Below, in pieces: positions 29,331 to 33,029 of a DNA stretch of 64,000 nucleotides; position 1 is the first letter of the stretch, and each line of letters begins with the position of its first letter. This DNA comes from Comamonadaceae bacterium. GTDB lineage: Bacteria > Pseudomonadota > Gammaproteobacteria > Burkholderiales > Burkholderiaceae_C. The notes under the pieces were generated by a model. That model was not told the origin of the DNA. It worked only from the letters and a program-made list of their open reading frames with translations, and searched no databases. A program made the position numbers and the translations under genes. Where the stretch lies: contig CANJPU010000007.1 in assembly GCA_947476285.1 (NCBI GenBank), positions 62,001 to 126,000 of the forward strand, written 5' to 3'.

Positions 29331-30668
29331 ATGCAAGCCTATCGCGCCGCCATTCTCCGATTCGCCGAGGATCAATCAGCCGTTTACGAACAGGATGGCC
29401 TGCTGGTCATCGGTGCTGATGCCGCTGGTCGGCAGGTGGTGCGTGCGGTGGGCGCTTATGCGGACTTGGTGCAGCAGCACGCTGGTGTAGAGACAGTCCA
29501 TTTGCCCGGTCGCATCATCGCCCCGGGCTTCATCGATCTGCACATTCACTTTCCGCAGGTCGACGTGATCGGTTCGCCCGCGCCGGGGCTTCTGCCCTGG
29601 CTGGAGAATTACACCTTTCCGCAGGAGGCGAAGTTTGCCGACGATGCGCATGCGCAAGCGCTCGCAAGTTTCTTCCTGGACGAGTTGCTGCGCCACGGCG
29701 TCACCACTCCGCTGGCCTTCGCCACCTCACACCCCGCATCGGTCAACGCCTTGATGGGCCAGGCGCAGCAGCGCGGCCTGCGCCTGATCGCGGGCAAGGT
29801 TTTGCAAGACCGGCATTCGCCAGATGGTGTGCGTGACAACACCGAGCAATCACTCATCGACACCGAATCGCTCATTGCGCGTTGGCACGGTCTTGGGCGC
29901 CTGGGCTATGCCATCACGCCGCGCTTCGCGCCCAGTTGCAGCCAGGCGCAGTTGCGCGGCGCGGGCGAGCTGGCTGCGCGCTACCCGGATGTGTGGATTC
30001 AATCGCACGTGGCCGAGAACCTGGACGAAGTGAAATGGGCGCGCGAGCTGTTTCCATCGTCCCGCAGCTACTTGTCTGTGTACGATGATTTTGGCCTGAT
30101 GCGCGAGCGCGCCATCTACGCCCACTGCATTCACTTTGACGACGACGACCGCAGGCTGATGCGCGCCACTGGGGCGGCTGCCGCAGTCAGCCCCACCAGC
30201 AATCTATTTCTGGGCAGCGGGTTTTTTGATTACGAAGGCGCGCAGCGCATCGGATTCAAATACGGCCTGGCCAGCGATGTGGGCGGCGGCACCAGCTTCA
30301 GCCCCTTTCACACCATGCTGGCCGCCTACTACGTGGGCCGCGAGGGTCAGACCAAGCCGGGCATCTCGCTCTCGCCGCAAAATCTATGGTGGCAGCACAC
30401 AGCAGGCGCGGCGCAGGCGCTTGGGTTGAAGGGTGTCATTGGCAATCTGCAGCCGGGCTGCGAAGCTGATTTCGTGGTGCTCAATCCCGCCGCCACGCCA
30501 TTGCTGGCGCGCAAGACCGCGCAGGCCGCCAGCCTCGATGAACTCCTGTTCTCGCTCATCGTGCTGGGTGATGATCGGGTGATCGATCGGGTGTTCGTCG
30601 GGGGCACAAGCGGTGCTTTGGCAGCAGGTGAAATCGTGGAGGTAAGCAATGACAACGACCCATCGTAA
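29331..30668 (+). CDS. guaD: Guanine deaminase
   Basis: Hydrolyses guanine to xanthine and ammonia in purine catabolism. A 445-residue amidohydrolase with the metal-binding PGFIDLHIHFPQ, the guanine-deaminase segment LPWLENYTFPQEAKF, QSHVAENLDEV (metal His), YAHCIHFDDDD (metal His) and GLASDVGGGTSFSPF (metal Asp plus the family's GGG-S-F loop). The start is ATG 29331, four bases after the BMP-type receptor gene; a longer frame upstream overlaps that gene. It probably forms a two-gene purine uptake and degradation unit. Its 3' end overlaps the following small HTH gene by 20 bases. Confidence 0.95.
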   Translation: MQAYRAAILRFAEDQSAVYEQDGLLVIGADAAGRQVVRAVGAYADLVQQHAGVETVHLPGRIIAPGFIDLHIHFPQVDVIGSPAPGLLPWLENYTFPQEAKFADDAHAQALASFFLDELLRHGVTTPLAFATSHPASVNALMGQAQQRGLRLIAGKVLQDRHSPDGVRDNTEQSLIDTESLIARWHGLGRLGYAITPRFAPSCSQAQLRGAGELAARYPDVWIQSHVAENLDEVKWARELFPSSRSYLSVYDDFGLMRERAIYAHCIHFDDDDRRLMRATGAAAAVSPTSNLFLGSGFFDYEGAQRIGFKYGLASDVGGGTSFSPFHTMLAAYYVGREGQTKPGISLSPQNLWWQHTAGAAQALGLKGVIGNLQPGCEADFVVLNPAATPLLARKTAQAASLDELLFSLIVLGDDRVIDRVFVGGTSGALAAGEIVEVSNDNDPS

Positions 30669-30969
30669 GAGCCGCATCCTGGACGAGATGCATGAGACCG
30701 CACGTGGGCTGCACAGTGCCGGGCTTATCAGCAAACGACGCATGGGCGAGTTTGATGCGCTCTGTCATCTCGACGTCCACGAGATGCCGCCGCAGCGAAT
30801 TAAAACGCTGCGCAGGCAGGTGCATCTCAGTCAGGCGGTGTTTGCCGCCGTGCTCAACACCAGTTTATCTACTGTGCAAAAGTGGGAGGCAGGAGACAAG
30901 AGGCCGAGCGGCCCGTCTCTGAAGCTGCTCAACATCATCGAGCGAAAAGGCCTGGAAGCTGTGCTCTAG
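30649..30969 (+). CDS. HigA/XRE-type antitoxin-like HTH protein without visible toxin
   Basis: A 106-residue protein whose second half is a Cro/C1-type helix-turn-helix ([21 protein letters not shown], then [17 protein letters not shown]), the pattern of HigA/NadS-type antitoxins that pair with RelE/HigB-like toxins. The ATG at 30649 has a strong ribosome-binding site (GGAGG at 30638-30642, spacing 6) inside the end of guaD. The usual upstream toxin position is occupied by guaD, and no toxin follows (dcd begins 52 bases downstream), so this is a second antitoxin-like gene without a partner in the window. It could act as an ordinary regulator. Confidence 0.85.
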
Positions 30970-31021
30970 GAGCCTGTCGGACTTTGGGCGTCGCCTAAAA
31001 TACCCTCGCAGGAGCACCACA

Positions 31022-32725
31022 ATGAGCATCAAGAGCGATAAATGGATACGCCGCATGTCCGAGCAGCACGGCATGATCGAGCCTTTCGAGCCCGGACAAA
31101 TCCGCGAGCGCGACGGCCACAAGATCATCAGCTACGGCACCAGCAGCTACGGCTACGACATCCGCTGCGCACCCGAATTCAAGGTCTTTACCAACATCCA
31201 CAGCACCGTGGTCGACCCGAAGAATTTCGACGAGAAAAGCTTCGTCGACATGAATGGCGACTACTGCATCATCCCGCCCAACAGCTTTGCTTTGGCGCGC
31301 ACGATGGAATACTTCCGCATCCCGCGCAATGTGCTGACCATCTGCCTGGGCAAGAGCACCTATGCGCGTTGTTTTCGCGGCGACACGCGCGTGGCGCTCG
31401 TCGATGGGACGTCTCCTACCCTGGAGGACATGGCCCGCCGCCATGATGCGGGCGAAGTCTTTTGGGGCTACAGCATCGGCCCCCACGGCCGTCTGATCGT
31501 CACGCTGCTGGACGCACCGCGATTCATCGGCCGTGACTCGCTGATGGAAGTGGAGCTTGACAGCGGCGAGTTGATCCACGCGACGCCGGATCACCTCTTC
31601 ATGCGGCGCGACGGCCTGATGACCACGGCCTCGGACTTGCGGCCGGGTGATTCGCTGATGCCCTTGTATCGCGATCTGGCGCGTGGCTACGAGATGGTCT
31701 ACCAGCCGCTGAACGGGCACATGCTGGCCACACACCGACTGGCGGACGATTGGAACCTGCGCAACGGCATTTACGCCGCCGTGCCAGATACCCGCCGGCA
31801 CCACATCGATTTCGATCGCAGGAACAACCGGCCGCCGAACATCGAGCGCATGCCGTCTGGTGAGCACATCCGGTTGCACAACGCCGAGAGTTACGGTGTT
31901 GATTTCGACCCGCAGGCGCATGGGTTGGCCATTCGTGATTCCCTCGCCCGGCGAGCTCTTGATCCGCAGTGGAAGGAACGTTTCGCTGCGCTCCAGTCCG
32001 AGCGGGCCGGAGCGTTCTGGCGCGAGGAGCGCTATGACAACATCCGTCGCCGCCTGATCGAGGCACGTCGAAATCCAAGTGATGCCACGCGCGAAGCGCA
32101 TCGCGCGGCGACCCTCGCCCGCTACGCCGATCCGGCGCAGCGGATTCGGCACGCGGAACTGATGCGCACCGCCTGGGCGCAGGACGACGGTGCCCGGCGT
32201 CGTGCGCAGGCTGAGGTGGCACGGCGCATCAATCTTCGCGATGAAATCACAGCCGAGAGCGTGCGGGAGGCACTCGACGAAACGGGCTCGATTCGCGGCG
32301 CGGCGCGATTGCTGCAGTGCGACCGATCGGTGTTTCGGCGTTTTCCGGAACAGGTTGCGAAATTCAGGGGCGTGGAGGCTGCGGGAACCTACCGCAACCA
32401 CAAGGTGGCGCGCGTCCGGGAACTGCCCGGTGACCACGATGTGTACTGTCTCACGGTGCCCGAGGCGGGCAACTTCGCGCTTGAGGCTGGTGTGTTCGTC
32501 AAGAATTGCGGCATCATAGTCAACGTCACGCCCTTCGAGCCCGAGTGGGAAGGCTACGTCACGCTGGAGTTCTCCAACACCACGCCGCTACCGGCCAAGA
32601 TCTACGCTGGCGAAGGCTGCGCCCAGGTGTTGTTCTTCGAGAGCGATGAAGTCTGCGAAACCAGCTACAAGGACCGTGGCGGCAAGTACCAGGGACAAAA
32701 GGGCGTGACCCTACCCAAGGCGTGA
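31022..32725 (+). CDS. dcd: dCTP deaminase precursor interrupted by an intein
   Basis: The 567-codon frame splits cleanly into a normal 188-residue dCTP deaminase and a 379-residue intein. The N-extein (1-116) ends LGKSTYAR, and the C-extein (72 residues) resumes [22 protein letters not shown]; joined, they give the standard Dcd active-site motif and standard length. Dcd converts dCTP to dUTP in the thymidylate pathway. The insertion point directly follows the Arg equivalent to catalytic Arg115 of E. coli Dcd, with the Ser four residues earlier and the catalytic Glu in TLEF after the junction, so the unspliced protein should be inactive. The ribosome-binding site AGGAG (31011-31015) supports the ATG. 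The following small gene starts four bases after the stop. Confidence 0.95.
31370..32506 (+). mobile_element. Class 1-type intein with HNH homing endonuclease in Dcd
   Basis: A 379-residue in-frame element. It begins with Cys1 ([10 protein letters not shown], block A), has block [14 protein letters not shown] with the TxxH pair, and ends with block [21 protein letters not shown] then VKN, followed by Cys as the +1 extein residue. The central part contains an HNH nuclease motif around 31799-31885 ([16 protein letters not shown], then EHIRLHN), a long Arg/Ala-rich helical stretch, and an HTH-like [20 protein letters not shown] as in NUMOD-type DNA-binding tails. The penultimate residue is Lys instead of the usual His. 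That change occurs in some inteins, but splicing here is inferred, not shown. The presence of the endonuclease suggests recent mobility. Confidence 0.93.
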
Positions 32726-32729
32726 GTGC

Positions 32730-33029
32730 ATGATCAACCCCAACGCACTGAGCGACCAGGTCATTGAGTCTTGCCTCGAAAGCGGGAAGAAGCACGACGC
32801 ATTTGTCAGGGCTGCGCACCAGTCCCTGCGTGAGGCGCGTGCCAGTGGCAATGTATACGACGGTGACGAGTATCTCGCCTACGCCCGGGCGCGACTTCAG
32901 GGCAAACACGTCTCCGTACCGCAGCTAGCTGTAAGGAACCTGCGAAAAGCCGGTGCGAAGCCGGCTACCCCTGAGCCGTCGCCACCCTGGCCGCCGCCAG
33001 ATCCCACCCCGCCCAGCCGCAGCTCTTGA
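32730..33029 (+). CDS. Small hypothetical protein, antitoxin-like helices
   Basis: A 99-residue protein starting four bases after the dcd stop with an AAGG ribosome-binding stretch, so probably co-transcribed with dcd. Residues 5-60 are predicted-helical and charged, with EARASGNVYDGDEYLAYARARL resembling the C-terminal part of ParD/CopG-type antitoxins. Residues 75-99 are Pro/Ser-rich. The last 65 bases overlap the convergent ornithine-cyclodeaminase-family gene, so the true end of a conserved protein may be shorter. No partner toxin is adjacent. The family is not recognised with certainty. Confidence 0.5.
   Translation: MINPNALSDQVIESCLESGKKHDAFVRAAHQSLREARASGNVYDGDEYLAYARARLQGKHVSVPQLAVRNLRKAGAKPATPEPSPPWPPPDPTPPSRSS

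Follow-up and report, generated by a model that had tools for sequence, protein, structure and literature searches.

The dCTP deaminase gene (dcd) of a Comamonadaceae bacterium is interrupted by an intein, which we read, with a probability of roughly 0.88, as a new instance of the intein allele that Aphanizomenon phage vB_AphaS-CL131 carries in dcd (site b in what follows) and as a homing parasite. The gene is the open reading frame at 31022-32725 on the forward strand of the window, by which we mean the whole 64,000-nucleotide stretch that was analysed, and has 567 codons ahead of the stop in the window's list of open reading frames. Residues 117-495 of the product are an in-frame, non-Dcd insert of 379 amino acids (31370-32506). 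The Dcd structure PDB 4dhk matches residues 1-117 and 496-566 and skips the insert; these matches bracket the foreign stretch and bear out the exact boundaries given for it in an earlier note on this DNA. The two exteins, 116 and 72 residues, add up to the 188-residue Dcd which that note expected once the insert is removed. The whole protein scores 110.3 bits against Pfam DCD and 144.8 bits against TIGR02274, and the 379-residue call (31370..32506) is backed by 51 complete relatives at the same dcd site. The window genome has one match to the dcd gene and one to Intein_splicing. According to PMC6293099, 4dhk comes from Burkholderia thailandensis. The features of the gene are listed below, with intein block positions named after PMC4031507.

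31022..31369, forward strand: Dcd N-extein, 116 residues, ending ...LGKSTYAR (Pfam DCD, TIGR02274 and 4dhk matches)
31370..32506, forward strand: class 1 HNH intein, 379 residues, CFRGDTRV...GVFVKN (Intein_splicing, intein_Nterm, intein_Cterm and HINT fold matches)
31370..31408, forward strand: block A with the Cys1 nucleophile, intein residues 1-13 (C1 in 52/52 aligned inteins)
31565..31603, forward strand: block B with T72 and H75, intein residues 66-78 (52/52)
31796..31882, forward strand: HNH motif, intein residues 143-171 (columns invariant in 36/36)
32246..32371, forward strand: helix-turn-helix-like tail, intein residues 293-334 (predicted helices and conservation)
32438..32506, forward strand: blocks F and G with the penultimate Lys and terminal Asn, intein residues 357-379 (C360 and N379 in 52/52)
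32507..32725, forward strand: Dcd C-extein, 72 residues plus stop, with the +1 Cys, CGIIVNVTP... (4dhk match to residues 496-566)

Arg115 of E. coli Dcd is catalytic. Seven intein-free Dcds of the genus, three of another subfamily and E. coli K-12 Dcd were aligned, and residue 116 (R) of the mature window protein falls on E. coli R115 and residue 117 (C) on L116, which places the insertion after the Arg115 equivalent, as had been claimed. The direct match to the E. coli Dcd chain 1xs1 is weak (E 0.064) and agrees with this placement. Intein-free genus mates encode STYAR-CGIIVN uninterrupted at the 26 DNA junctions read, and the +1 Cys is native to Dcd, being present in all 26 of these genes. 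Directly upstream of dcd lies a small helix-turn-helix protein (30649-30969, forward strand; HTH_3 over cut-off, MqsA antitoxin below cut-off), and right downstream a 99-residue open reading frame (32730-33029, forward strand) with no Pfam match at E 0.001. A 480-residue antisense frame across dcd (30995-32437, reverse strand) is probably a by-product of GC-rich coding.

The insert is an intein. In the window dcd protein Pfam Intein_splicing reaches 52.3 bits against a cut-off of 35.8, and both NCBIfam profiles are over their cut-offs, intein_Nterm at 29.2 against 24.5 and intein_Cterm at 19.7 against 15.6; with the HNH residues also intact, the earlier description of an intein with an HNH domain stands. 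NCBIfam NF052663 gives 132.4 bits over part of its length and does not reach its cut-off of 1050. Residues C1, T72, H75, C360 and N379 are invariant in 52 inteins (that of the window and 51 others). With Cys1, the block B pair Thr72 and His75, the terminal Asn379 and a +1 Cys, the window intein belongs to class 1; the penultimate His, a trait common in that class and not required, is absent, and Lys stands there. Several inteins that lack the penultimate His still work, according to PMC7664689. The class 3 mechanism, marked by a WCT motif and the lack of Cys1 or Ser1, was considered and rejected: Cys1 is present, and Phe77, not Trp, stands two residues after the block B His in 52/52 inteins. 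Since Cys is second only to Asp in frequency at block F position 4, as given in PMC4031507, Cys360 alone is not diagnostic of class 3.

The predicted model of the intein (mean pLDDT 80.5, pTM 0.42) has the HINT fold: Foldseek ranks intein splicing domains first, among them NpuDnaE (E 2.1e-06) and Mtu RecA, and the titles of its 41 PDB matches at E <= 0.001 name inteins, Hedgehog or bacterial intein-like domains. By sequence, the only PDB matches of the insert at E <= 0.01 are five chains, from the Pho RadA intein and DnaE inteins. For the full-length precursor, the predicted structure (mean pLDDT 71.9, pTM 0.49) is too weak to support an argument. The tail at 32246..32371, where the Pfam scan of the window dcd protein reported no match, is a possible DNA-contact module by its predicted helices. 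A foreign base composition was sought in the intein against the exteins and gave no clear signal, with GC at 0.65 against 0.57 and 0.61, whereas at third positions the intein, at 0.76, falls below the exteins' 0.84 and 0.83. We infer that the window intein is splicing-competent. Cys1, the terminal Asn379 and the +1 Cys of Dcd would excise it after translation and join STYAR to CGIIVN; judging from these residues and the published phage homologue, the product would be a 188-residue Dcd.

That phage homologue is ORF069 of CL131 (PMC6293099), which has the same host protein and the same type of junction: its intein interrupts dcd at GKSTYAR/C and ends in VFVKN/C, as in the window. The two inteins share insertion point and homology (E 5.6e-51 for the intein match, in a small local database), and so count as one allele, although they are only 33% identical and one sits in a cyanophage, the other in a bacterial chromosome. 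When the CL131 gene was expressed in E. coli, the purified tagged product is reported to run at the size of spliced Dcd on SDS-PAGE (PMC6293099). The same source, citing Novikova 2016 and MacGregor 2013, describes self-splicing "intron-containing" dCTP deaminases in two bacteria (Proteobacteria and Chloroflexi). As in the window, dcd is interrupted there by a self-splicing element, and these are very likely the same allele.

The earlier note suspected that the penultimate Lys slows C-terminal cleavage, and one could go further and picture a crippled intein, slow or prone to cleavage in its splicing, in a host whose Dcd is partly inactive. His is indeed the most frequent penultimate residue among the 66 distinct site-b inteins (36, followed by S 19, R 7, K 3 and L 1). 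Even so, S, R, K or L takes this place in 30 of the 66, which speaks against Lys as a defect, and Lys itself occurs in three: the window intein, that of CL131 and that of locus L166. As the CL131 intein, at the same site and with the same VFVKN/C end, is reported to excise itself in E. coli, the Lys is no sign of poor splicing. In addition, the window intein departs from the columns conserved at 85% or more in nine places, none of them a named splicing residue. A crippled intein thus seems very improbable, and the suspicion about the Lys is weak at best.

The HNH residues H144, H145, N152, N153, N157, H166 and H170 are invariant in 36/36 inteins, the window's included, in the alignment that served for structure prediction; 34 of these inteins are full-length, and L063 and L068 are shortened. 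Over all 52 inteins, H145 is kept in 47 of 48 and H166 in 40 of 41 ungapped rows, one departure each. Pfam HNH_3 stays below its cut-off in the window (14.3 against 24.8 bits) and is over it in the CL131 homologue (38.7 bits). The HNH region has a dN/dS of 0.03-0.10 in nine of 12 close full-length pairs (those with finite dS; L047 and L167 are identical, so one of the 12 is counted twice), the splicing region of the same pairs 0.04-0.08 where finite and the helical tail 0.07-0.14, all of them rough values in pairs that exclude the window intein for want of a close enough partner, with dS often near or above 1 and in some pairs infinite. The low HNH-region values in these pairs argue that the endonuclease is under selection across the intein family where it is present. 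The family set, made up of the scan loci, the genome-search loci and CL131, holds 71 rows, of which 66 are distinct (five identical pairs). Of the distinct inteins 43 have at least 360 residues, 3 have 300-359 and 20 fewer than 300, and the label full or mini needs 14 changes on the intein tree. That pattern on the tree is best explained if the endonuclease was lost repeatedly once the intein had reached these relatives.

The genus of the window genome supplies many empty sites. A Dcd match was found in 52 of its 60 genomes, and the intein only in the window's own (1/60). The two dcd halves are directly adjacent, as in an empty allele, in 49 of the 60 genomes; G032 has no room for the insert and G037 is uninformative. 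The comparison with intein-free alleles that had been proposed as a check gives an empty site in 49 genus genomes, with 26 junctions read. In one genus mate the dcd match carries an in-frame TAG (G043:C67:5748-6098). Seven genus mates have Intein_splicing matches elsewhere (L202-L208), four of them over cut-off; by eye, L203-L205, L207 and L208 have frames that look like ribonucleotide reductase, while that of L206 looks like a radical SAM protein.

The suggestion that nucleotide metabolism would depend on splicing proved soft, as eight of the 60 genus genomes (G002, G012, G021, G029, G025, G035, G040 and G044) show no Dcd match, only hits like dUTPase. TIGR02274 is over its cut-off in none of the eight; seven give 22-28 bits and G044 also a 54-bit hit, and these weak hits, that of G044 too, resemble dUTPase by eye. 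Four of the eight genomes are 99-100% complete. In a control of 14 genomes the profile responded in 12 and exceeded its cut-off in 8, leaving true hits below the cut-off in four, so the absence of Dcd is not settled by that cut-off alone.

Beyond the genus, the intein was found in two of 399 genomes of the family, the window's and L121, and the two belong to different intein lineages. A scan of genome contigs gave 58 related loci, and 55 of them lie in dcd at the window junction. These 55 carry at least six phylum labels, many of them from metagenome bins; in 51 both exteins are present and the frame is open, and three (L065, L069 and L082) end at a contig edge. In one locus, L032, on a long metagenome contig, the copy of the intein is frameshifted near its end. 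The other three loci (L086-L088) are distant, at 26-33% identity, with flanks that look like GyrB and GyrA. GyrA, GyrB and RtcB-type inteins are distant relatives of the window intein that differ from it in host protein and site, the gyrase being named from flanking residues. The draft state of the genome, in 117 contigs, might suggest an assembly or sequencing artefact. This is hardly credible: the junctions are exact and lie where 55 of the 58 related loci have theirs, the 567 codons contain no internal stop, and the invariant residues are all retained.

Inteins and their host genes have largely gone separate ways. Over extein identity bands from 0.4-0.5 to 0.9-1.0, the mean identity of the splicing parts is 0.69, 0.67, 0.69, 0.70, 0.72 and 0.85, and the Pearson correlation between the two is 0.30 (71 rows). 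Between the window and L121, from another genus of the same family, the exteins are 94% identical and the splicing parts 71%. The tree groups the window intein with L031, L073 and L068 (support 95/94) and puts L121 in another supported clade; a single clade of window and L121 was rejected in the AU test at p = 0.018, a moderate value for a pair chosen after the tree was seen. Inteins nevertheless cluster by labelled phylum (8 changes against 25 when shuffled), so much of the spread was within groups or is old, and the cyanobacterial inteins form one clade. A co-conversion tract was sought round the site and not found against 26 genus mates, the same-length genes among 29 loci (two lacked an intact pattern and one had another length): codon differences between window and mates were 0.27 in codons 101-116, against 0.23 among mates, and 0.21 in codons 117-132, against 0.23. 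Our reading is that the intein moved horizontally inside groups and at times across them, long enough ago for such tracts to have blurred. The sporadic pattern could come in part from repeated loss.

Sporadic presence and the decoupling of intein from extein make the homing parasite, which the earlier note had offered as one option, the best reading. The HNH domain should cleave dcd at its conserved empty site, and repair of the cut gene would copy the intein into it. The intein would persist by moving horizontally, a parasite whose landing place is an invariant catalytic motif, its endonuclease apparently being lost again and again after arrival in relatives.

The earlier note's other option was a redox switch. 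In such a case an oxidised C1, C360 or +1 Cys would hold Dcd as an inactive precursor and tune dCTP and dUTP to stress. The insertion does lie within the catalytic motif, and C1 and C360 are present in 52/52 inteins, beside the +1 Cys. Disulfides of active-site cysteines make other inteins redox-sensitive, as described in PMC4031507, and stress-responsive splicing is reported for a mycobacterial DnaB intein in PMC6195587. Yet Cys is, by PMC4031507, the second commonest residue at block F position 4 and hence not special there. The window intein has three cysteines in all, C1, C317 (45 of 46 ungapped rows) and C360. The three are conserved across the family and the +1 Cys belongs to Dcd itself, so the switch has no specific support in them. 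There is also no sign that hosts keep a switch, with one of 60 genus genomes occupied and eight of 60 without Dcd, and inteins and exteins are largely decoupled. Conditional splicing is therefore unlikely, though a little less so than the crippled intein, and the homing parasite stays the preferred account.

Viruses carry the same allele. Of the 104 phage records that matched, CL131 alone covers 80% or more of the query. A viral scan with the intein alignment gave one locus in dcd, on an IMG/VR contig (L209:2436-3386), at the same junction and 51% identical, and four in other proteins. These four viral contigs (L210-L213) hold related inteins in proteins that are by eye portal-like (L210-L212) and baseplate-like (L213). 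Viral scans with the window intein alone as query, or with an intein of a neighbouring dcd site (intein a, below), returned no match, and a plasmid search returned no dcd intein and one weak match in a gyrB.

Relatives have two further dcd intein sites within 20 codons, which we call a (GK/S) and c (before W). In the Dcd alignment site a follows E. coli position 110, site b position 115 and site c position 129; inteins at site c lie immediately ahead of the conserved W or two residues short of it. The three sites and their stacking are seen in the gene sequences of relatives. A bin of Thermoflexales (Chloroflexota) has a 1315-residue dcd frame with three inteins (L037:3429-7376): a after GK (412 residues, with a LAGLIDADG_3 match), b after STYAR (376) and c after TPFEP (341), a and b being separated by the five residues STYAR only. 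Chromatium okenii DSM 169 (L081:3423-5921) has intein a and a shortened b, with STYAR between them, and a genome labelled C. okenii LaCa (L079) has the shortened b alone. A cyanobacterium (L156:1483-3111, reverse strand) has an intein at c alone, with a +1 Ser. All 11 of the a-bearing genes tried have Cys first, Asn last and STYAR after.

Group searches at E <= 1e-60, whose counts are lower bounds, found site b in at least two of 244 cyanobacterial genomes, site a only in at least two, site c only in at least one and other genes in at least two. Among 195 genomes of the order of Chromatium, at least ten had b only, at least seven a only and at least one both; among 251 Chloroflexota genomes, at least seven had b only, at least one all three and at least eight other genes. 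No Dcd extein match was found in the ten "other genes" (two cyanobacterial and eight from Chloroflexota). When 350 Chloroflexota were scanned with TIGR02274 for an interrupted dcd, the best rows among the matches listed were another Dcd subfamily. The literature searched contained no report of dcd sites a or c, the two most relevant papers being outside its scope.

These genes lead us to suspect, at somewhat better than even odds, that the catalytic part of Dcd is a hot spot for inteins across phyla, with three sites (a of LAGLIDADG type, b of HNH type, and c) whose inteins move independently, can stack and block each other's homing. Inteins a and c are predicted to be mobile, and an occupied site should block its neighbour's homing, since each occupied site splits the neighbour's target DNA. 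A comparable case is haloarchaeal MCM, where several inteins also occupy nearby sites in the active region of the host protein, and where neighbouring inteins are reported to hinder each other's homing (PMC10643990). MCM differs in being an archaeal helicase with LAGLIDADG inteins, and in dcd just five codons lie between sites a and b. In L037 both ends of the five-residue extein STYAR have to be ligated, and if the hot spot is real, dcd would be a compact natural test of intein competition.

The window intein is itself of an ordinary kind, a homing intein whose host protein and insertion site were both known before. Its boundaries in dcd are clear, and the genus supplies many naturally empty alleles against which homing could be assayed. 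Counted with its relatives, it takes the dcd inteins from a handful of reports to 66 distinct sequences that share one site, in a family that spans full and endonuclease-free forms. The stacked sites in relatives are of more interest than the window intein. Dcd is a small soluble enzyme, and assays of its adjacent sites should be simpler than in helicases or polymerases; the order of multiple splicing events and the competition of neighbouring homing elements would become testable.
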